Part shown: positions 1,074-11,171 of the stretch, piece after piece
Numbering within the stretch: the stretch's first letter is position 1
Layout: every line of letters starts with the position of its first letter
Assembly: GCA_003693905.1 (NCBI GenBank)
Contig: RFLL01000303.1
Location: 1 to 13,371, forward strand
Source: Alphaproteobacteria bacterium
GTDB lineage: Bacteria; Pseudomonadota; Alphaproteobacteria; Kiloniellales; J153
Reading direction: 5' to 3'
DNA: 13,371 nt
Translations under genes and position numbers: made by a program
The notes under the pieces: model-generated
The model's database searches: none
Told to the model about the DNA's origin: nothing
What the model saw: only the letters and a program-made list of their open reading frames with translations

Positions 1074-1904
1074 CTACAAGGTTGCGCCGGGGGTTCCCAT
1101 GGCATAGATGCGCAACTGCTCGGTCACGAAATCGAACGCCTCGTCCACCGAATCGGTACGAAAAAACAGCCCCAGATCGGCACCATCGATGGTGCCGTAA
1201 CGGCTCAGTGCTTCGAAATTGATCACCTCCGACCAGTAGCGCTCGCCGAACAGGACGATTGGCAGGTGCTTGCGGATCTTGCGTGTCTGGATCAGGGTCA
1301 GCAGCTCGAACAGTTCGTCCAGGGTGCCGAAGCCGCCCGGCATCACCACCACCGCCTTGGCCATGTAGGCGAACCAGAACTTGCGCATGAAAAAGTAGTG
1401 GAACTCGAACACCAGTTCGCGGCTGATGTGCGGGTTCTCGCTTTGTTCATAGGGCAGTGAAATATTGAGGCCGATATTGATCCCGCGCGCCTCCGAGGCC
1501 CCCCGGTTGGCGGCCTCCATGATGCCCGGTCCGCCGCCGCTGCACACCACGAACCGGCGTCCCGAATCGGGCAGAGCCTTGGACCACTCGGTCAGACGCC
1601 GGGCCAGTTCGCGCGTGGCCTCGTAATAGCGCGACAGCTCCAGACGCAGCTCGGCACGCCGCAGCGCCTCCCCTCCCTCGGTCCGCGCGGCCTCCAGCTC
1701 CGCCTGCGCCCGCGCCCGGGGGATGATCCGGGCCGACCCGAAGAAGATGATCGTATCCTCGATCCGGTAGTGCCGGAAGCGGCTGTTGGGCTCCAGAGAC
1801 TCGGCCAGAATGCGCAAAGCGCGGGCATCCGGGCTATGCATGAAGCTGGGATCCTCATAGGCCCGCGGTCGGCGGCTGCTTCGCGGTGGCGAACTGTCGT
1901 TCAT
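1074..1904 (-). CDS. LOG-family protein (TIGR00730-type Rossmann-fold nucleotide phosphoribohydrolase)
   Basis: A 276-residue protein of the LOG / lysine-decarboxylase-like family, whose members cleave the N-glycosidic bond of nucleoside 5'-monophosphates. In plants and some bacteria this releases active cytokinin. The two family motifs are intact: SGGGPGIMEAANRGA (residues 122-136) and PGGFGTLDE (189-197), with Glu197 at the expected catalytic position and MRK at 173-175. The start is the ATG at 1904, which overlaps the stop of the preceding fumarylacetoacetate-hydrolase gene as ATGA, with GGAAGAGAG upstream; translational coupling is likely. The first 40 or so residues are a charged, proline-rich extension compared with short LOG proteins of about 190 residues. 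It is the last gene of the tyrosine-degradation operon, an unexpected companion. The motifs do not tell whether the substrate is a cytokinin riboside phosphate or an ordinary purine nucleotide. Confidence 0.88.
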   Translation of the reverse strand: MNDSSPPRSSRRPRAYEDPSFMHSPDARALRILAESLEPNSRFRHYRIEDTIIFFGSARIIPRARAQAELEAARTEGGEALRRAELRLELSRYYEATRELARRLTEWSKALPDSGRRFVVCSGGGPGIMEAANRGASEARGINIGLNISLPYEQSENPHISRELVFEFHYFFMRKFWFAYMAKAVVVMPGGFGTLDELFELLTLIQTRKIRKHLPIVLFGERYWSEVINFEALSRYGTIDGADLGLFFRTDSVDEAFDFVTEQLRIYAMGTPGATL

Positions 1905-2923
1905 GCACTCTCTTCCTTGTAGCGGTCCTTGCCATCGGCAGCGGGTGCCGCCGATACGACGCGTTGATCGATGGCACCGAAAATGGTGTGCCCGTCCGCA
2001 TCCCGCATTTCTATGCGTACCCGGTCACCAGGTTGCAAGAAGGGCGTTCGCGGGGCCCCGGTCTCGATGGTCTCGATCATGCGGACCTCGGCCAGACAGG
2101 CACCACCGGCGGCGCGGTCCGCATTCGATACCGTGCCCGAACCGATGACGGTTCCAGCGCCCAGGCACCGTGTCCGCGCGGCATGCGTGATCAGGCGGGC
2201 AAAGTCAAATATCATGTCGCGCCCGGCATCGGGACAACCAACCAGGTGTCCGTTGACGCGGCATTCGAGCCTTCCCGCCAGCTTCGCCCCGTCCCATGCC
2301 GGGCCGAGTTCGTCCGGCGTCAGCGCCACGGGGGAAGCGCTGCTGGCCGGTTTGGACTGGAAAAAGCCGAATCCCTTGGCCAGCTCGGCCGGGATCAGGT
2401 TGCGCAGGCTGATGTCGTTGAGCAGCATCACCAGCCTGATGTGGCACCCGGCACGCTCCGGCGCAACGGCCATGGGCACATCGTCCACGATCACTGCCAC
2501 CTCGCCCTCGAAGTCGAGGCCCCAGTCCGCACATCCCAGCGGGATATCGTCGCACGGGCCGAGGAAGCCGTCGGAGACGCCCTGATATATCAACGGTTCC
2601 TGCCACAGGTCGTCGGGCATGTCGGCGCCGCGGGCGCGGCGTACCAGGGCGACATGATGGACATAGGCCGAAGCGTCGGCGAACTGATAGGCACGCGGCA
2701 GCGGTGCCGCACAGGCGGCGGCCGTAAACGGTTCGGCATCGGGTCGGCGGCCGGCTTCCAGCGCCGCCGCGATCTCGCGCAGGGCCGGCTCCACCTCCTC
2801 CCACCGGTCAAGCGCCGCTTGCAGGGTCGGTGCCACCTCGCCCACCCGCACGCAGCGGCGCAACGCCCGGTCGACGACGACTAGGGCGCCATCGCGCCCC
2901 TGCCTCAAGGATGCCAGTTTCAT
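1901..2923 (-). CDS. Fumarylacetoacetate hydrolase family protein
   Basis: A 340-residue enzyme of the FAH superfamily. In this operon its expected job is to hydrolyse fumarylacetoacetate to fumarate and acetoacetate, the last step of the homogentisate route. The pattern of metal and catalytic residues is recognisable: DASAYVHH (83-90), where Asp83 and His90 have the same spacing as Asp126/His133 of mammalian FAH; DFEGEVAV (137-144) with Glu139 and Glu141; LND ending at Asp170; SK at 190-191; and GTVIGSGTVSN (257-267). It is shorter than the about 420-residue eukaryotic FAH and lacks its large N-terminal domain. The ATG at 2923 follows the hmgA-like stop by 9 nt. Only a weak AGGG is near it, with a better GGAGG about 20 nt upstream inside hmgA. 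The 3' end overlaps the LOG gene by 4 bp. An acylpyruvase or other 2-ketoacid hydrolase is possible by family, but context favours fumarylacetoacetate. Confidence 0.85.
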   Translation of the reverse strand: MKLASLRQGRDGALVVVDRALRRCVRVGEVAPTLQAALDRWEEVEPALREIAAALEAGRRPDAEPFTAAACAAPLPRAYQFADASAYVHHVALVRRARGADMPDDLWQEPLIYQGVSDGFLGPCDDIPLGCADWGLDFEGEVAVIVDDVPMAVAPERAGCHIRLVMLLNDISLRNLIPAELAKGFGFFQSKPASSASPVALTPDELGPAWDGAKLAGRLECRVNGHLVGCPDAGRDMIFDFARLITHAARTRCLGAGTVIGSGTVSNADRAAGGACLAEVRMIETIETGAPRTPFLQPGDRVRIEMRDADGHTIFGAIDQRVVSAAPAADGKDRYKEESA

Positions 2924-2932
2924 CGCACGGCC

Positions 2933-4093
2933 CTAGCCTGCCTCCCCCTCCCCGGCCGGCGGCGGCCGCCACGAATCGATGTAGGTGTGGATCTCGACCC
3001 CGTCCGGCACCGGGCCGGGCGTCAGCGGATCGCGGGTATCGACCATGACCGCGATCTCGTCGGTGGCGGCGCGTTTCGGGTTCAGCATGCCCGCCAGCGC
3101 CTTGGGATGCGGCCCGTGAGGAAAACCGCAGGGATGAAACGTGATCATGCCGCAGGCGATGTTGTCGCGGCTGAAGAAATCGCCGCGGTGATAGAAGATC
3201 ACCTCGTCGAAATCATCGTTGCTGTGGAAGAACGGCACCTTGAGCGCGCCGGGATCGGTCTCGAAGGGCCGTGGTACGAAGGTGCAGACGACGAAGCGTT
3301 CGGCCAGAAACGTGGTGTGCGCCGACGGCGGCAGATGATAGCGATGACTCATCAACGGCCGGATATCGCGCACGTTGAGGCGCACTGGCATCAGATCGCC
3401 GTGCCATCCGACGGCATCGAGCGGGTTGTAGGGATAGGTCACGGTGGAGATTTCGCCGCCCCGCTTGATGCGCACACGCCAGGTCTCTTCCTGCCCGTCG
3501 GGGGTCTGCTGGGCACGGAACGCATCGTCGAGGCGCGGGGTATCAAGTACTGCGGGATCGAAGATCGCGTGTGCGCCGACCAGACCCCGCTCGGGTAGGC
3601 CATACGCCCCGCCGGTCGCCTCGATCATCAGAAGCTCGGCCGGTCCGTCGAAAGCAACGCGCCACATGGTACCGCGGGGAATCACCAGGTAGTCGCCGGC
3701 CTCAATAACCAGATGGCCGTAGTCGCAGAAGAAATCGCCGCGGCCTTCATGCACGAACAGAAGGTCGTCACCGTCGGCGTTGCGCACCAGAGTGTCCATC
3801 GCGCCGCTTGTGCGCCAGAAACGATACTGAACGTGTGCGTTGTGAAGCACCGTCGAAGCCGCCCACGGATCGCCCGGTGCCGGCGCGATGCGGTTGAGGT
3901 CGAAGGCGCGCGGGCGCAGCGGCCCCTCCCAGGTGCGCCAACCGGTCGGTGGACGGCGGTGATACATGTGGGTGGCCGGCCCGAAGAAGCCGCCGCGGCC
4001 AAGCTCGCGCTCATAGGTCCCCGGCGGCAGGTCGGCATGGGCCTGGCGCGAGGTCACGCCTTCGCTGCGCGGCAAGGCGATGCGCCGCTTCAT
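2933..4093 (-). CDS. hmgA: Homogentisate 1,2-dioxygenase (short, divergent cupin form)
   Basis: A 386-residue cupin-type dioxygenase expected to open the ring of homogentisate to maleylacetoacetate with non-haem Fe(II). Family features lie in the C-terminal half: PPSAHTTFLAERFVVCTFVP (255-274), then HSNDDFDEV (290-298) with His290 and Glu297 as likely iron ligands. HPCGFPHGPHP (320-330) follows, in which His326 occupies the PHGP position of the third ligand in the human enzyme. DEIAVMVDTRDPL follows. Classical HmgA is about 430-445 residues with HRNCMSE and TPHGPD around the ligands. This protein is clearly shorter and the first ligand motif differs, so it belongs to a divergent branch. The ATG at 4093 overlaps the phhA stop as ATGA. 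Position between phhA and a FAH-type gene supports the assignment. Substrate is inferred from context and family. Confidence 0.85.
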   Translation of the reverse strand: MKRRIALPRSEGVTSRQAHADLPPGTYERELGRGGFFGPATHMYHRRPPTGWRTWEGPLRPRAFDLNRIAPAPGDPWAASTVLHNAHVQYRFWRTSGAMDTLVRNADGDDLLFVHEGRGDFFCDYGHLVIEAGDYLVIPRGTMWRVAFDGPAELLMIEATGGAYGLPERGLVGAHAIFDPAVLDTPRLDDAFRAQQTPDGQEETWRVRIKRGGEISTVTYPYNPLDAVGWHGDLMPVRLNVRDIRPLMSHRYHLPPSAHTTFLAERFVVCTFVPRPFETDPGALKVPFFHSNDDFDEVIFYHRGDFFSRDNIACGMITFHPCGFPHGPHPKALAGMLNPKRAATDEIAVMVDTRDPLTPGPVPDGVEIHTYIDSWRPPPAGEGEAG

Positions 4094-4938
4094 CGCCGGT
4101 CCCCGGATCGGGCCGTGGCAGCCGGCGGGATCAGGCGATCGCCCGCCACCACGGCGCCCGGCGCGATGTCGGGAAGATCCCTCAGCGCCGCATAATACGG
4201 CGTGAAGTCGGGCCGGGTTGCCGCAAAAAGCTGATCGAAGTCGTCAATCACGAAATAGCAGTCCTGAAAATCGTCGATCCGGTATTCGGTGCGCATGATG
4301 CGCATCAGGTCGAAGGCGATACGTTTCGGCCCGGGATCGTCGAGGCAATAGATCGTCTCCCCATGCGAAGAGACGATGCCCGAGCCATAGATGCGCAAAC
4401 CCGCTGCGGTCGCAATCAGGCCGAATTCGACCGTGTACCAGTACAGCCGCGACAGGTTGCGCAAGGCGCCCAGGCTCAGCGCCTTCAACCCGCCGCGCCC
4501 GTAGGCCTGCAGGTAGTCGGCGAAAACCGGGTTCATCAGCATCGGCACATGGCCGAAGACATCGTGAAAGACATCGGGTTCCTGAAGGTAGTCCATCTGA
4601 TCGCGGCGGCGGATCCAGCGCGTTGCGGGGAATTGCCGCCGCGCAAGATGACGGAAAAAGACGTCGTCGGGAACGAGGCCGGGCACGGCGACAATGCGCC
4701 AGCCGGTGGTGCGCGCAAGGATCCCGGACAGGCGTTCGAAATCCGGAATGCCGTCGGCGACGACGCCGAGCGCGGCCAGGCCGTCCAGATACGCATCGCA
4801 GGCCCGCCCGGCAAGCAGGCGCGACTGACGCTCGAACAGGGCGCGCCAGATGGCGTGATCCACGGTGCTGTAGGTGTCCCACCTCTGCGCGATGACGTGA
4901 TCGGCGCCGGGTGCCGCCGGTCCGGATGCGATCCCCAT
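4090..4938 (-). CDS. phhA: Phenylalanine 4-monooxygenase (bacterial type)
   Basis: A 282-residue bacterial phenylalanine hydroxylase that converts L-phenylalanine to L-tyrosine using tetrahydropterin, O2 and Fe(II). The iron-binding triad is plain: His125 and His130 in EPDVFHDVFGHVPML (120-134) and Glu171 in YWYTVEFGL (166-174). Other conserved stretches are DYLQEP (116-121), LRIYGSGIVSSHGE (181-194) and the tail FQDCYFVIDDFDQL. The length matches bacterial one-domain enzymes, with no N-terminal ACT regulatory domain. The ATG at 4938 lies 3 nt after the hpd stop codon, with GAGGGA about 9 nt upstream. A pterin carbinolamine dehydratase (phhB), often the partner gene, is not in the window. Its place between hpd and hmgA feeds phenylalanine into the homogentisate pathway. 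Confidence 0.96.
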   Translation of the reverse strand: MGIASGPAAPGADHVIAQRWDTYSTVDHAIWRALFERQSRLLAGRACDAYLDGLAALGVVADGIPDFERLSGILARTTGWRIVAVPGLVPDDVFFRHLARRQFPATRWIRRRDQMDYLQEPDVFHDVFGHVPMLMNPVFADYLQAYGRGGLKALSLGALRNLSRLYWYTVEFGLIATAAGLRIYGSGIVSSHGETIYCLDDPGPKRIAFDLMRIMRTEYRIDDFQDCYFVIDDFDQLFAATRPDFTPYYAALRDLPDIAPGAVVAGDRLIPPAATARSGDRR

Positions 4939-4941
4939 CGG

Positions 4942-6102
4942 CTATCCCTCGAGGACGCCGCGGCGGATCTGGTCCTGCTCCATGGATTCGAACAGCGCCT
5001 TGAAGTTGCCTTCGCCGAAGCCTTCGTCGCCCTTGCGCTGAATGATCTCGAAAAAGATCGGTCCGATCACCGTGCGGGTGAAGATCTGCAACAGGATGCC
5101 GCCGCCTTGCGTGGGCGCACCGTCGATCAGGATACCGTTGCGGCGCAGGCGCTCCAGATCCTCGCCGTGGCCGGGCAGGCGCCGGTCGACGGCTTCGTAA
5201 TAGGCCGCAGGCGGCGGATCCATGAAGTCGAGCCCGCGCGCCTTCAGGGCCTCGACGGTGGCATAGATGTCGTCGGTGGACAGCGCGATATGCTGAATGC
5301 CCTCGCCGCGGTAGGCGTATAGATATTCCGCGATCTGCGACTTGTCGTCGGCCGATTCGTTGATCGGAATGCGGATCCTGCCGCACGGGCTGGTCATCGC
5401 GCGGCTGCGCAGACCGGTCAGCTTGCCTTCGATGTCGAAATAGCGGATCTGCCGGAAGTTGAACAGACGCTCGTAGAATTCGGCCCACAGATCCATGCGG
5501 CCGCGAAAGACGTTGTGGGTCAGGTGATCGATCTCGCGCAGGCCGACGCCGGGATCCTCCCGGTCGGTGTCCTGCGCCGGATCGACGGGGACGAAATCGA
5601 CATCGTAGATGCTCGGATTGTCGGCGCGATCGACGAGGTAGATCAGACTTTCCCCGATCCCGCGGATCGCCGGGATGTTGAGCTCCATCGGTCCGACGCG
5701 ACCGTGATAGGGCTCGGCGCCGAGTGCACACGCCCGTTCGAACGCCTGGGCCGCATCGCGTACGCGAAACGCGATCGCACACACCGACGGCCCGTGCACG
5801 CGCGCAAATGATTGTGCGAAGCTGCGCGGCTCGGCATTGACGATGAAGTTGATGTCGTTCTGCCGGTAATGGGTCACCGCCTTGGAGCGGTGGCGGGCGA
5901 CCGGGCGGAAGCCCATGATCTCGAACAGACGCCCCAGCGCCGCCGTGTCCTCGGCCGTGTATTCGATGAACTCGAACCCGAACGTGCCCATCGGGTTGTC
6001 CCACAGGTCCCGATGGTCCTCGTGGTCCCGACGGCCGGGGGCTCCAGATGGGCGGGCCCGTGTGAAAGAGCCAGATGTGTCGTGTGTCAACGTGGTCGGC
6101 AT
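4942..6102 (-). CDS. hpd: 4-hydroxyphenylpyruvate dioxygenase
   Basis: A 386-residue enzyme that converts 4-hydroxyphenylpyruvate to homogentisate with Fe(II) and O2. Two vicinal-oxygen-chelate halves are seen, starting at GTFGFEFIEYTAED (39-52) and REIDHLTHNVF (189-199). The iron ligands are His193 (IDHLTHNV), His271 (GIQHIALS) and Glu352 (IFFEIIQRKGD). Their spacings (78 and 81) are nearly those of the Pseudomonas enzyme (79 and 82). The C-terminal gate helix GFGEGNFKALFESMEQDQ is present. The start at 6102 is backed by GAGGAGG 6-7 nt upstream. It gives an N-terminal extension of about 30 charged residues before DNPMG, where shorter bacterial homologues begin. It is the first gene of the five-gene operon and lies about 57 nt from a predicted transcription start. 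Confidence 0.96.
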   Translation of the reverse strand: MPTTLTHDTSGSFTRARPSGAPGRRDHEDHRDLWDNPMGTFGFEFIEYTAEDTAALGRLFEIMGFRPVARHRSKAVTHYRQNDINFIVNAEPRSFAQSFARVHGPSVCAIAFRVRDAAQAFERACALGAEPYHGRVGPMELNIPAIRGIGESLIYLVDRADNPSIYDVDFVPVDPAQDTDREDPGVGLREIDHLTHNVFRGRMDLWAEFYERLFNFRQIRYFDIEGKLTGLRSRAMTSPCGRIRIPINESADDKSQIAEYLYAYRGEGIQHIALSTDDIYATVEALKARGLDFMDPPPAAYYEAVDRRLPGHGEDLERLRRNGILIDGAPTQGGGILLQIFTRTVIGPIFFEIIQRKGDEGFGEGNFKALFESMEQDQIRRGVLEG

Positions 6103-6194: not shown

Positions 6195-6444
6195 ATCACT
6201 CATCGGCGACCAGGCATCGGCGCCCGGCTGCTGGCGGATCCAGTGACCGATCGCCGGACCGGTGAGCGCCGGCAGCCGCCGGAAAGGCGCAAGACGGTGC
6301 CGGCACCGCCGAGGGGTGGACGGCCGAGCGCAAAAAGGTCGAAAAGCAGCAGCAGCCCGAAAAATAGGGTGCGGCATACGGGCGCGCATGCGAAAAGGAC
6401 ATCCTGCCCGATATCCGCCTCGGGCATGGTGACCTGAAAAAGGG
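6195..6444. other. Non-coding GC-rich stretch between hpd promoter and AT-rich block
   Basis: Several short frames are open here on both strands, but none has a ribosome binding site, a recognisable domain or a consistent codon pattern. The most protein-like is a plus-strand GTG frame at 6243-6437, rich in ERR/PPERR motifs, which has no convincing start and changes character half way. I see no RNA gene or repeat. Confidence 0.5.
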
Positions 6445-6464
6445 AAAAAAGGGCGATATGCCCT
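6445..6464 (-). terminator. Weak intrinsic-terminator-like hairpin reading on the minus strand
   Basis: Read on the minus strand, AGGGC (6464-6460), a 5-nt loop and GCCCT (6454-6450) form a 5-bp stem. A run of T follows at 6450-6445, then CCC and a second T-run. It would stop transcription entering from the right towards hpd. The stem is short, so this is a candidate only. Confidence 0.4.
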
Positions 6465-6507
6465 GATTATAAATATATAAACGAGGCAAAACCCTAATTT
6501 CAGGGCA
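6459..6507. repeat. 8-bp inverted repeat flanking an AT-rich core
   Basis: TGCCCTGA (6459-6466) is the exact reverse complement of TCAGGGCA (6500-6507). The 33 bp between them are mostly A and T and include TATAAATATATAAA. The same GGGC/GCCC element also pairs with 6450-6454, and CCCT at 6492-6495 pairs with AGGG at 6502-6505, so several stems are alternatives. It is either a protein-binding region or a structured leader. Confidence 0.5.
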
Positions 6508-6566
6508 AAATGTCCTAATCGTTCGTGCGTAGGCTCAAAAAAAATCTTCCTGTGACAAATTTGTGC

Positions 6567-6595
6567 TTGCGTTTCGTTTCAGGACCTCTTATATA
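6567..6595 (+). promoter_or_regulatory. Predicted promoter of the small RNA gene
   Basis: TTGCGT (6567-6572), a 17-nt spacer and TATATA (6590-6595) form a plausible sigma-70-type promoter on the plus strand. The predicted start, about 7 nt downstream, falls at 6601-6603. That is exactly where the 5' stem of the hairpin at 6600-6649 begins. A perfect palindrome ACAAATTTGT (6555-6564) lies just upstream and is a possible operator. Confidence 0.5.
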
Positions 6596-6601
6596 TATTC
6601 A

Positions 6602-6743
6602 CGAACAGGGCGTCACGGTCATATTTCTCTTGGGCGTGGCCTGTTCGTGTAGGGAAGTATCCCGACTGAGAACTGCCCTTACACCGTATTGCACGCACAT
6701 CGCACTGACACTCCTCGGGGACCATCCGGTCCCCGTTTCTTTT
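6602..6743 (+). ncRNA. Candidate small RNA, about 142 nt, family not recognised
   Basis: A self-contained transcription unit can be read here: promoter at 6567-6595, 5' end near 6602, intrinsic terminator at 6716-6743. Near the 5' end, CACGAACAGG (6600-6609) is fully complementary to CCTGTTCGTG (6640-6649), a 10-bp stem, with an inner CACG/CGTG stem (6614-6617 with 6635-6638). A second small hairpin, GGGA-AGTA-TCCC, is at 6652-6663. An alternative pairing, GTGTAGGG (6647-6654) with CCCTTACAC (6676-6684) with one bulge, would compete with both. The stretch 6685-6715 is mostly unpaired and could be a target-binding region. It does not look like 6S, 4.5S, tmRNA or RNase P RNA. No plausible reading frame with a ribosome binding site lies inside it. 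It is transcribed divergently from hpd. Confidence 0.5.
6716..6743 (+). terminator. Rho-independent terminator of the candidate small RNA
   Basis: CGGGGACC (6716-6723), a 4-nt ATCC loop and GGTCCCCG (6728-6735) form a perfect 8-bp stem. The plus-strand tail TTTCTTTT (6736-6743) follows directly. This is the best intrinsic terminator in the window, and no protein gene ends before it on this strand. Confidence 0.8.
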
Positions 6744-7222
6744 GCCTGCCGACCAGGCGCGAATGCCTGCAAGGATCGTCTCCCCGGTCCCCATCCCATC
6801 CGGCAAGACGCCGCCGGTGCGACCCGGTCGGCGCCGGGGCCGGGAAGCGATCCCCGTGCGCGCCTGCGCCTTTCCCGCCCCCTGGCTGCCGCTGTCTGTT
6901 GCCTCTCAAGCCTGTCGAGACCCTCTTTCCGCACCTCTCCGTCTATGGCGGTAGGCGAGGCGGATTGCATGGTCAACCGAAAGCGCACACAAGACGCTTA
7001 TTCCCTGTGCAAGTGTGGCAATAATGACTCACCTGGACCGCGACGGACGCGCAACGCCAAGGCGTCGCCATCATCCTCACCTTTATGTGATGAGCTGTGT
7101 CCGTGTGACGAACCACTGCGCAGGGATCAGGATTTCATGCCCTACGTACTTTATATTCTTATGCTGCAATCATATGCATAGAATTACATTCTAATAGTGG
7201 GTTTTTTGTTCCCGGCAATCGA
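6744..7222. other. Intergenic region with no supported gene
   Basis: Roughly 480 bp between the small-RNA terminator and the promoter region of the binding-protein gene. Open frames on both strands lack ribosome binding sites and recognisable domains. GC content falls sharply after about 7140. A 6-bp dyad, TAGAAT-TAC-ATTCTA, is centred at 7186 and is followed by a short T-run at 7202-7207; it is too AT-rich to be a normal terminator. Confidence 0.5.
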
Positions 7223-7251: not shown

Positions 7252-7309
7252 TGCGATGGTATGACGCTCCTTCGCACTTCTTTCGTACTGGATTGTGGAG
7301 GATCGTCTC

Positions 7310-8482
7310 ATGATACGCAGGGCTCCCCTTGCTCTGGCTGCCACGGCGTTCGTGCTGAGTGTGGCGACGTCGTCTTTTGCCGCCGACCCCGGCGTGTTCC
7401 CCGATCGTATCGTGCTCGGTCAGTCGGCTGCCTTCGAAGGACCGGCCAGCGCACTCGGTCAGGGAATGCGACTGGGCCTGCAGGCCGCCTTCAAAGAAGC
7501 CAACGATGCCGGCGGCGTCCATGGACGCAAGATCGAACTAATCACCTATGACGATGGCTACGAGCCGGACAAGGCCATCGCCAACACCAAGAAGCTGATC
7601 GAACAGGACCAGGTTTTCGCCCTGATCGGTGAGGTCGGCACGCCGACGTCGAAAGCCACGCAGCCGATTGCCACCGCCGCACAGGTGCCGTTCATCGGAC
7701 CGTTTACCGGCGCCGGCTTCCTGCGCAATCCCGAGCTGGTCAACGTCGTCAACGTCCGCGCCACTTATGACCAGGAAACCGAAGCCTGGATCGAACACCT
7801 GACCACCGACCTCGGAATCAAGAAGATCGCCATCCTGTATCAGGACGATTCCTTCGGCCGCGTCGGGCTGGCCGGGGTTCAGAAGGCGATGAAGAAACGC
7901 GGCATGAATCTGGTCGCCGAAGCGACTTATCCGCGCAACACCACGGCGGTCAAATCGGCGCTTCTGACGATCCGCAAGGCCGACCCGGAAGCGGTCGTCA
8001 TGGTCGGCGCCTACAAGCCGGTGGCCGAATTCATCAAGCTTGCCCACAAGATCAAGATGGACCCGGTGTTCGTCACGATCTCGTTCGTGGGCTCGAAGGC
8101 GCTGGCCAAGGAACTGGGTTCGGACGGAGCCGGCGTCGTGATCACGCAGGTCGTACCGTTCCCCGAAGACACGTCGATCCCGCTGGTCGCCGCCTATCAC
8201 AAGGCGCTGAAAGCCATCGACCCGCAGGCGGAACCCGGCTTCGTGTCGCTTGAAGGCTACATGGTCGGGCGTCTGTTCGTCGAAGCCCTGTCGAAGGCCG
8301 GGGCCGAGCCGACGCGCACCACCCTGCTGGACGCCGTCTATCAGACCGGCCGCTTCGATCTCGGCGGCGTCACCCTCAGCTACGGCCCCGGTGACAACCA
8401 GGGCATGGATCAGGTGTTCCTGTCGGTGATCGAGGCCGACGGAACCTTCAAGGCCGTGGATCGGTTGGGCGCAGGGAGCTGA
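7310..8482 (+). CDS. Periplasmic substrate-binding protein, branched-chain amino acid (LivK/Peripla_BP_6) type
   Basis: A 390-residue exported solute-binding protein. The signal peptide is clear: MIRR, a hydrophobic core to residue 19, and the cleavage context SSFA-AD (after Ala24). The mature part follows the type I binding-protein fold of the LivK family. It opens with [20 protein letters not shown] and continues with [32 protein letters not shown] and [16 protein letters not shown] (second lobe). The start is the ATG at 7310 with GGAGG 8 nt upstream; an in-frame GTG at 7295 overlaps that Shine-Dalgarno and is unlikely. Only 55 nt, AT-rich and without a terminator, separate it from the chemoreceptor gene. 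No permease or ATPase gene follows, unlike normal liv operons. It may therefore deliver its ligand to the receptor rather than, or as well as, to a transporter elsewhere. The ligand cannot be read from the sequence. Confidence 0.9.
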
Positions 8483-8537
8483 GGAAGACAGAAAAACAAT
8501 AAAAACAATAACATACGCTTTTGACAGAGGGACAGCC

Positions 8538-11171
8538 ATGAAAATCAACGCATTCACCTCTGCCGCGAAGGCTCGCGTCGCGGGAGACAAATCCGGCGTC
8601 AGAAAGAAGGCGCTCAGCATCCGCGCCAAACTGTTCATGGCCTTTGGCGCAACCGCCTTCATGACCGTCACGGTCGGTGGCGTTGCATGGCTGTCCTTCG
8701 AGCGTATCGGCGGCAATCTGACCGACATTACCGGGCGCGTCGTTCCGGTGATGAAATCGGCCCTGGAGGTGGCGGCGGAAACCGCACGGCTGAGCGCCGT
8801 TACGCCGACCCTGCAGGCGGCACAAACCCATGACGAACGCACCGCCGCACAGACCCAGCTGACCGCGTCCCGGCAGAACCTGGAACGGTTGATCAAGGAC
8901 CTCGGAACACGCCTTGGCACCGAGGCCCGCGATCAGATTCTGAAGCTGGACGAGAAGCTCGATGAGCTCTCGGGCGACTTCGAAAAACTTGATCAGGCCG
9001 TTGCGCAAGGCATTGATCTGAGTGCACGACGCATGGAGCTCGTCGAACAGGTCGGCAAGATACACACCGGTCTTCTCAACGAGCTGGCACCGAAGATAGA
9101 TGACGCATCCTTCACTCTGGTCATCACCGCCGAGGACGTCACCCAGACCAGCAGTCGGTCGATCCGCGACCTGACCGAGCGCCAGATCGCGACACTTCGC
9201 TCCGCACTGGAAATCAAGGCCGAGATCAACTCTATTTTCGGACTCTATACACAGGTCGCATTCGTTTCCGACCCTGCGTTCCTGCCGCCCCTGATCGAAC
9301 AGTATGCCGCGGCGACAAAGCGCATCGCGGCCATGATCCCCAATCTCCCCCAGACGCCCGTCGCTCAGCGCGTCGTACAACTGACACAGCGTCTGATCGA
9401 TTATGGCGCCGGTGAGGAATCTCTGTTCACCCTTCGTCGCAACGAGTTGACAAATACTGCAACCTCGGCCCGCGAAGCGCGACACAAGATATCGAACGAC
9501 ATTCTGGCCGTGCACGATCAGCTTTCGGCGGCCTTGGCGCAGCTCGTCGATGACGCCAATTTCGACCTGATCATCGGAACCGACGATGCAATCCAGAATA
9601 GCGCCACCGCGATCCAGACCCTCATGGACAAGGACGTGGCAAACTTGCGTGCAATGCTGTCGCTTCAGGCCGAAGCCAACCTGCTCGCCGGGCTGCTGGC
9701 CAGCGCAGCCAACGAGACCACGCTTGCCCTGCTGCAACCGCTCAAAGAGCGTCTGACGGCGACATCGAAGCGTCTTGCACAGAATGTTGCCGCGCTTCCC
9801 GAAGGCGATGAATTCGAGACCATCAAGACGGCCACCGCAGCGCTGCTCGCGTTCACGGCCGGTGACATGAATATTCTGTCACTGCGAACGGACGAATTGT
9901 CCCTGAATGCGCAGGCGGCGGATCTGGTGGCCGATGCACGTGAAGATTCGGCCGATTTGCAGAAACTCGTCCAGGCCTTCGTCGGTCAGAGCGATTCGGC
10001 CATGAAGGCTGCCGTTCAGGAGAGCGAAGACATCATCCATATCAGCAGCCAGATCATGCTGGTCGTGGTCGGGGTCAGCATCGTCGGGGCAATACTCCTG
10101 AGCTGGCTTTATGTCGGACGCGCGGTCATCCATCGCCTGACCGGAGTCGCCTACGCGATGCAGGAAATCAGCAGCGGACATCTGCGCGCCGAAATTCCGA
10201 TCGACGGCAATGACGAAATCACCCGCATCGCCGAGGCCCTGGTCGTCTTCCGCGACAATGCGCTGGAACTCGAAGAAAGTCGCAAACGCACGGAAGAAGA
10301 ACGGGAACGCGCGGCACGGGAACGTCGCGAGCTGATGCTCGAGCTGGCCCGGAATTTCGAAACCGAGGTCGGCGATGTGGTCGAGACCGTCACCGGATCT
10401 TCGCTCGAATTGAAAGAATCCGCCCAGACCATGGCCAGCATTGCGGAGCAGACCCGGAACCGGGCATCGGCGGTTTCCGCGGCCACGCAGAACGCCGCCA
10501 GCGCCGTTCAAAGCGTCGGGTCCGCGGCCGAGGAGCTGTCCAGTTCCATCGGCGAGATCAGTTGCCAGGTTTCGGAATCGACCAAGATCGCGCAGCAGGC
10601 GGTCGAAACCGCAAAGCGCACGACGGCGGCGATCGGAGACCTCGTCGAAGCCGCCCAGCAGGTCGGTGAAGTGGTCGAGATGATCCGGGATATCGCCGAT
10701 CAGACCAACCTGCTGGCTCTCAACGCCACCATCGAGGCGGCGCGGGCCGGCGATGCCGGCAAGGGCTTTGCCGTGGTCGCTTCGGAAGTCAAGAACCTCG
10801 CCAACCAGACCGGCAAGGCAACGGAGCAGGTGGCGGCGCAGATCGCAGCCATTCAGACCCGGACCGGAGAAGCCGCCCAGACGATGGAAGAAATTGCGAA
10901 GGTCATCACCGAAATCGACCAGATCGCGACGACCATCGCCTCGGCCGTGGAAGAACAGAATGCGGCGACCGCGGAAATCGCCCGCAACGCGCAGCAGGCC
11001 GGCACCTCGACCGAGCAGGTTTCCAATACCATCGCAGAGGTCAGCCAGGCGGCGAACATGTCGGGCCAGACCGCCGAATCCCTCCTTGCCGCCGCCAACG
11101 GCCTGTCCGAACAAAGCAATCGGCTGCGGACCCAGGTCGCGCGGTTCCTGGAACAGGTACGTGCGGCATAG
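8538..11171 (+). CDS. Methyl-accepting chemotaxis protein with large duplicated helical periplasmic sensor
   Basis: An 877-residue transmembrane chemoreceptor that would signal to CheA/CheW. In order: basic N-terminus (1-30), TM1 (about 32-54), a very large all-helical periplasmic region (about 55-504), TM2 (about 506-527), a HAMP domain (about 528-580) and the coiled-coil signalling domain (about 610-870). The hairpin tip [20 protein letters not shown] (718-737) is canonical and is followed by [16 protein letters not shown]. The periplasmic region contains an internal repeat: residues 169-304 align with 315-454. About 20 of 54 positions are identical in the core (183-236 versus 335-388), and both copies end in an S/T-L-R-x-x-E-L motif. 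This resembles the nested helical sensor of TorS, which reads out a periplasmic binding protein. GAGGG lies about 7 nt before the ATG. There is no C-terminal CheR-tethering pentapeptide (it ends FLEQVRAA). Receptor class is certain; the sensor homology is my inference. Confidence 0.95.

Follow-up and report, generated by a model that had tools for sequence, protein, structure and literature searches.

A probable new small RNA family with an upstream palindrome module in one alphaproteobacterial family

The stretch of DNA analysed here (the window; 13,371 nucleotides) carries, in the best explanation we can offer, a genuine gene for a small RNA of a new family, with a sigma-70-type promoter that would be controlled by upstream palindromes and a conserved core that would act in trans together with Hfq. 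We consider this explanation as a whole probable, and the presence of an orphan small RNA gene appears well supported by sequence comparison of nine genomes. The window belongs to an assembly (G000) that has 455 contigs, a size of 2.33 Mb and a completeness of 59.6%. The features of the region, with their coordinates in the window, are the following.

1901 to 6102, minus strand: context, hpd, aromatic amino acid hydroxylase (phhA), homogentisate-dioxygenase-like and FAH-domain genes (by Pfam), conserved in order
6449 to 6465, no strand: palindrome AAGGGCGATATGCCCTG, strong copy, 10 of 12 positions of the consensus TAGGGC-N5-GCCCTA
6501 to 6517, no strand: promoter-proximal palindrome CAGGGCAAAATGTCCTA, 10 of 12 consensus positions, ending 48 bp before the -35 element
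6566 to 6571, plus strand: -35 element CTTGCG, same position in nine of nine genomes
6590 to 6595, plus strand: -10 element TATATA; relatives have a TAT-rich -10 element
6600 to 6649, plus strand: 5' stem-loop region, a perfect 10-bp stem in the DNA; 5' hairpin predicted in eight of nine genomes
6602 to 6743, plus strand: predicted small RNA of about 142 nt, its start placed from the -10 element
6647 to 6684, plus strand: hairpin 2, GUGUAGGG-AGU..ACU-CCC-UACAC, in five of nine genomes (the window and four of genus g4)
6688 to 6710, plus strand: conserved, largely unpaired core AUUGCACGCACAUCGCACUGACA, the proposed pairing region
6695 to 6705, plus strand: invariant GCACAUCGCAC inside the core, identical in nine of nine genomes
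6716 to 6743, plus strand: intrinsic terminator, 8-bp stem followed by TTTCTTTT; stable hairpin in nine of nine genomes
7295 to 8482, plus strand: context, periplasmic binding protein gene (Peripla_BP_6, by Pfam), the next gene downstream

The -35 element of the small RNA promoter reads CTTGCG in the window, and TTGCGT at 6567-6572 is followed by a 17-nt spacer before the -10 element. The arms of the 5' stem, CACGAACAGG at 6600-6609 and CCTGTTCGTG at 6640-6649, pair perfectly; a transcription start at about 6602 would leave the outer two of these pairs untranscribed. The terminator stem (6716-6735) has eight pairs, seven of them G-C, with the T tail directly 3' of it. Promoter boxes, stem and terminator all lie in the window sequence where a preliminary description of this DNA had placed them. 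Hairpin 2 is a structure absent from that description, and because bases 6647-6649 belong both to it and to the end of the 10-bp stem, the two compete.

Taken by itself, the window is weak evidence for such a gene, because a scan of 6300-7000 with an E. coli-type promoter consensus found no site, terminator-like sites hardly exceeded expectation (2 observed versus 0.9 expected) and the fold of 6600-6745 stands out little from shuffled sequence (z -1.84; 6 of 200 shuffles are equally stable). It is the comparison across genomes that makes the evidence strong, with conservation deciding the matter.

The small RNA is present in all nine genomes of the window's family (G000 to G008), in eight as judged by a covariance model and in the ninth by its core and architecture. 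All nine are multi-contig assemblies, and eight of them are metagenome-assembled genomes (MAGs). A DNA search of 98 genomes, comprising the window's own and relatives, gave matches in seven, all among the nine of the family, with a single match in G000. From these seven sequences the covariance model R1 was built, which matches eight of the nine family genomes at 35 to 158 bits (E up to 0.001), as a single copy in each; seven of these matches exist by construction, leaving G005 (35.3 bits over 101 nt) as the one found independently. The ninth genome, G002, reaches 15.2 bits with R1 and possesses the core, the promoter, the palindromes and the terminator hairpin; it carries the RNA a second time where the end of another contig overlaps (L082).

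Beyond the family, R1 matched none of 52 genomes of the order and no credible copy was found among the 384 genomes other than the window's own in a class sample of 385, in searches whose stricter filters (applied to more than 40 genomes) lose some weak matches and could miss a copy as diverged as that of G002. Three hits in the class at 28-31 bits were rejected, as they share GC-rich terminators and the core is absent. A pattern scan of contigs from named genomes returned ten stretches, nine of them in eight MAGs labelled Kiloniellaceae or Proteobacteria and one in Burkholderia paludis, the last being taken as a chance match with neither a T tail nor a comparable promoter visible around it. 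As far as seen, the small RNA appears confined to one alphaproteobacterial family, whose records carry these two labels.

The preliminary description had not recognised the family, and neither does Rfam: its covariance models (release 15), those for 6S RNA included, gave no match at the gathering threshold in the window and none at E up to 5 in 6480-6800. Among the titles listed by a literature search of open-licence papers, none reports the small RNA or the palindrome motif. We file the small RNA as a new family of a known kind, probably the trans-encoded small RNAs.

Element by element, the unit shows a graded pattern of conservation across the nine genomes. In all of them the CTTG of the -35 element sits 129-132 nt 5' of the invariant GCACATCGCAC core, followed by a TATA- or TAT-rich -10 element. 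Among seven genomes the 23-nt core shows 91-100% identity, and between these and genus g3 70-78%; the 5' arm shows 51-71% between genera. A 5' hairpin is predicted in all genomes except G002 (z +1.3), with z-scores of -1.7 to -4.4 and often with different sequence, and the terminator hairpin is predicted throughout (z -3.0 to -5.7). Hairpin 2 has z-scores of -1.8 to -2.5 in the five genomes that form it and is missing in G001, G004, G005 and G002 (z -0.5 to +1.2), and the z-scores for folding of the whole RNA span only -0.6 to -4.0. The core is largely unpaired in the predicted ensembles but not wholly open, as a 3-bp pairing within it is predicted in several genomes.

The preliminary description had proposed looking in related genomes for conserved stems and for compensatory base changes. 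Terminator and 5' hairpin are indeed kept to the extent given above, with a 5' arm that is variable in sequence; compensatory changes proved to be few, two-sided changes occurring in 3 of 30 consensus pairs with an unfavourable covariation term of +1.19 kcal/mol. Because covariation is weak, the structure rests on the folding of each individual sequence and not on compensatory change. A long-range pairing between 5' arm and core proposed by RNAalifold, which forms part of model R1, has two-sided changes in none of its eight pairs and was not built on.

One rival idea takes the unit for a small mRNA that codes for a short peptide. An ATG frame is found in G007 and G008, and six of the nine genomes have a TTG at the same position in the core. 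However, no start codon with its frame is common to the nine genomes compared, the TTG is not followed by a common stop, and an indel in G003 shifts the frame, so that we regard a peptide product as scarcely probable. With promoter, core and terminator kept in nine of nine genomes, no common frame and no Rfam match, the earlier claim of an orphan small RNA gene devoid of a reading frame is well supported, and its own promoter and intrinsic terminator would make the small RNA an independent intergenic unit.

The position of the gene is conserved on one side. By comparison with relatives, hpd likely starts near 5991, and it is divergent from the small RNA in all eight genomes whose contig reaches that far; G008 is left out of this count, as its contig ends near the promoter and does not include hpd. 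In G002 hpd and the palindrome array are separated by a gene for an alcohol-dehydrogenase-type protein of 330 aa, and a similar-sized gap of about 1.4 kb is found there in G005. Downstream, the next gene in the window follows after about 550 bp; this Peripla_BP_6 gene is unmatched in the compared stretches around the small RNA of the relatives. An EF-hand gene was matched on the downstream side in G002 (overlapping contig), G003, G005, G006 and G008, with no match in the compared stretches of G001 and G004, and the contig of G007 ends before. Because hpd is constant while the downstream genes vary, the small RNA is tied in position to hpd and not to one downstream gene. The window itself has binding-protein and chemoreceptor genes (7295-11171) between the small RNA and its EF-hand gene, and since they are unmatched in the relatives' compared stretches, they look inserted into this locus.

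This variation also weighs against the element being the leader, that is an attenuator or riboswitch, of the gene behind it. The unit does end in a terminator upstream of a same-strand gene in the window (7295), as a leader would. Yet a riboswitch or attenuator would be recognised by a constant downstream gene, and here that gene is a binding protein in the window, an EF-hand protein in five relatives and neither matched as EF-hand in G001 nor in G004; moreover, the terminator is stable in every genome and the next gene in the window is about 550 bp away. We consider a leader quite unlikely.

Upstream of the small RNA, palindromes of the form TAGGGC-N5-GCCCTA are found in all eight genomes with sequence in that place, where base shuffles of the same stretches contain 0.24-0.40 such sites. 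Seven of the eight have three consecutive palindromes at steps of 24 and 29 bp, and G005 and G002 add a fourth, another 30 bp away from the promoter. In the window the array is degenerate: it consists of two strong copies, 52 bp apart and with no good copy between them, and two weak ones. From the end of the last palindrome to the -35 element there are 48, 49 and 50 bp in G000, G001 and G004 and 58, 58, 58, 58 and 59 bp in G003, G006, G007, G002 and G005, respectively. These two distance classes lie about one helical turn apart, as would be expected if a bound protein has to face the polymerase.

The palindromes keep this nearly fixed distance to the small RNA promoter, but not to hpd. The distinction matters for the view that the conserved block serves chiefly as DNA through which the hpd operon is controlled and gives rise to no RNA of its own, a view that draws on the constant place of the block beside hpd and on partial conservation of the hpd side itself: 6103-6440 matches two of eight relatives' loci over 49 nt, and 44-90 nt are shared among three g4 loci. 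Against it, the stretch from promoter to terminator (6566-6745) matches six of the same eight loci and does so more strongly (58-160 nt), and the spacing between palindrome and promoter stays at 48-59 bp even where the additional gene of G002 or the long gap of G005 intervenes on the way to hpd. The array stretch and the downstream stretch had no match in the relatives' loci at E 1e-3. That the block serves mainly as an hpd control region is, in our judgement, most improbable.

Returning to the palindromes as part of a small RNA promoter, a single copy with one mismatch is nothing special, the backward control being commoner in every genome. The triple module, searched with up to three mismatches, gave 15 matches in 8 of 61 genomes of the order, all within the window's family, compared with none in the 52 order genomes outside the family and none for the backward control in all 61; this count misses the degenerate copy of the window, and it includes a pair of matches in G001 that overlap, one on each strand. 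Seven of the matches precede the small RNA, five a membrane-type protein of about 100-126 aa (G001, G003, G004, G007, G008) and two the gene of an XRE-like protein of 86-90 aa (G001, G004), while the remaining one is divergent from the XRE-like gene and stands before a second small RNA candidate (G001). A fixed cis-module in front of the small RNA, the second candidate, the membrane protein and a putative regulator suggests a presumed regulon that is so far undescribed.

The membrane-type protein behind the triple module in five genomes (L143, L145, L149, L151, L153) is about 100 aa long and carries an APASxPxSVLG-like motif, and the two examples tested had no Pfam match above cut-off. In genus g3, arrays with other spacing precede similar small genes beside a YbjQ-family gene (L058, L059, L061), and palindrome arrays are also seen about 90-150 bp before a small protein frame containing VNIGERYRD (L051, L057), the L051 protein being without a Pfam match.

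The XRE-like protein is encoded in all nine family genomes and is our candidate for the regulator. Palindromes with at least 9 of 12 matches were recognised by script upstream of its gene in seven genomes (several in G001, G002, G004 and G005, one in G003 and G008), and by coordinates one palindrome lies 56-58 bp before it in G006 and G007, so that all nine have them. The protein has 85 database relatives, unnamed or hypothetical and in few cases labelled Kiloniellales, Kiloniellaceae or Pelagibius. Its AlphaFold2 model is confident and all-helical (pLDDT 88), and the nearest structures found by Foldseek are the XRE-type palindrome binders HigA2, Aca2 and P22 c2 (TM about 0.5-0.6). It would resemble these in being a small protein with a palindrome-bearing gene and a similar predicted fold; it differs in that the Foldseek E-values are not below 0.16 and sequence libraries give only sub-threshold matches (HTH_21 and VC1465_fam). 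Binding of the palindromes by this protein is putative.

Near the XRE-like gene of G003 lies a frame whose C-terminal end may be that of a glutamine synthetase. A wider scheme may be sketched tentatively, although we find it rather doubtful: an autoregulated XRE-like protein of about 88 aa, its gene beside a glnA-like gene, would bind the phased triple palindromes and control two unrelated small RNAs, the membrane protein and itself, so that RNA would connect nitrogen metabolism with that of aromatic amino acids.

The second small RNA candidate lies beside the XRE-like gene on the opposite strand and has promoter-like boxes, a conserved stretch and a terminator-like hairpin (L152 and L154 in G001, L155 in G004, L162 in G003, L156 in G008, L161 in G006 and L159 in G007). 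The conserved stretch reads CTCCTCACTTAGCGC...TCTCC in the four g4 genomes and GGTCTCC...AGCGC in G001 and G004, and the candidate has no Rfam match at the gathering threshold.

In order to find partners of the core we turned to antisense sites. Outside the small RNA copies, each genome has 0-3 copies of the antisense 11-mer GTGCGATGTGC, which makes 10 places in the nine genomes. One orthologous pair is found among these, where the perfect complement covers the initiation codon of a gene for a class II glutamine amidotransferase (L083 in G007, L080 in G006); this target was rejected, the orthologues in G003, G008 and G002 being without the site. The antisense 18-mer with up to 3 mismatches, a query that fits the form of the small RNA in g1, g2, g4 and g5 and not that of genus g3, was found at 7 places besides the small RNA as compared to 6 for the backward control, and no two of these loci are related by blastn. 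Duplex energies against the hpd start region were calculated for two RNA segments in each of the six genomes with a recognised start (left out were G005 and G002, whose start was unrecognised by the script, and G008, whose contig is without hpd); one of the 12 values was below z -2 (G001, -2.47) and eight were positive. No conserved target of the core thus emerged from the exact or near-exact antisense search in nine genomes or from the hpd-start duplex test in six. The preliminary description had also ventured a link to the divergent aromatic-degradation operon. What supports such a link is the conserved divergent neighbourhood of hpd; the palindromes hold their spacing to the RNA promoter and not to hpd, and the duplex test yielded no consistent signal in the six genomes. 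That description, taken as a whole, is partly supported.

Our first choice is base pairing with Hfq, the mode that small RNAs of this anatomy use most often; protein binding is the main rival. An hfq gene is present in seven of the nine family genomes; the search did not find it in G000, itself 59.6% complete, or in G005. According to the rival, the small RNA is real and regulatory and binds a protein, as sponge or decoy, through the repeated GCAC or the GGA before the core instead of pairing with mRNAs. It gains from the at least three GCAC in or just before the core in eight of nine genomes, from one GGA at nearly the same place in all nine (51-55 nt from the start), from the largely unpaired core and from the lack of a conserved antisense target in the nine genomes. 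It loses from G005, which has two GCAC only, and from the remaining GGAs (1-5 per RNA in total), which are not common to the genomes and leave the RNA without the repeated GGA of Rsm-type RNAs; in addition, the 6S models of Rfam are unmatched and a protein that binds a GCAC motif of this kind is not known to us. Protein binding strikes us as unlikely, if the least so among the alternatives considered.

Base pairing with Hfq, the reading we prefer, has its parallels in Hfq-dependent trans-encoded small RNAs, of which AbcR and the rhizobial alpha-r families are alphaproteobacterial examples. With these it shares the intergenic position, its own promoter, a 5' hairpin, a largely unpaired conserved stretch, a U-tailed terminator and the presence of hfq in most genomes; unlike the known families it has no Rfam match, and its Hfq partnership and targets are putative. 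GacA/Rsm-type small RNAs are defined by several conserved GGA motifs, and here a single GGA occupies a shared position. The GacA site also presumably differs in sequence from TAGGGC-N5-GCCCTA. For RsmX, RsmY and RsmZ, a palindromic upstream activating sequence is described as a potential GacA site (PMC2375449), which is like the present case in that a palindromic regulator site lies upstream of a small RNA promoter. The present family departs from that arrangement in having several palindromes at fixed steps and one shared GGA in place of several.

Taken together, we infer the following course of events. A dimeric regulator would bind the two to four phased palindromes and switch on, or tune, the sigma-70-type promoter 48-59 bp downstream. 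This promoter would yield an RNA of about 140 nt, in which a 5' hairpin of variable sequence is followed by the conserved core, for the most part unpaired, and by a strong, U-tailed terminator. The most likely mode of action of the RNA is in trans and with the help of Hfq, the core forming short duplexes with mRNAs; the pairing part would be the GCACAUCGCAC region and perhaps CUGCCC.

The known small RNAs are extended by a family of nine sequences, for which there are now a covariance model and a defined control module; it comes from a bacterial group in which the members that can be named here are known from metagenome assemblies alone. It also illustrates that a call read by hand from a single sequence, on the basis of boxes, stem and terminator, can prove correct where neither a consensus promoter scan nor Rfam gives a signal. 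The module offers a direct handle on its biology: the same palindromes mark the other genes of the presumed regulon, making the regulator and the role of the RNA testable together.
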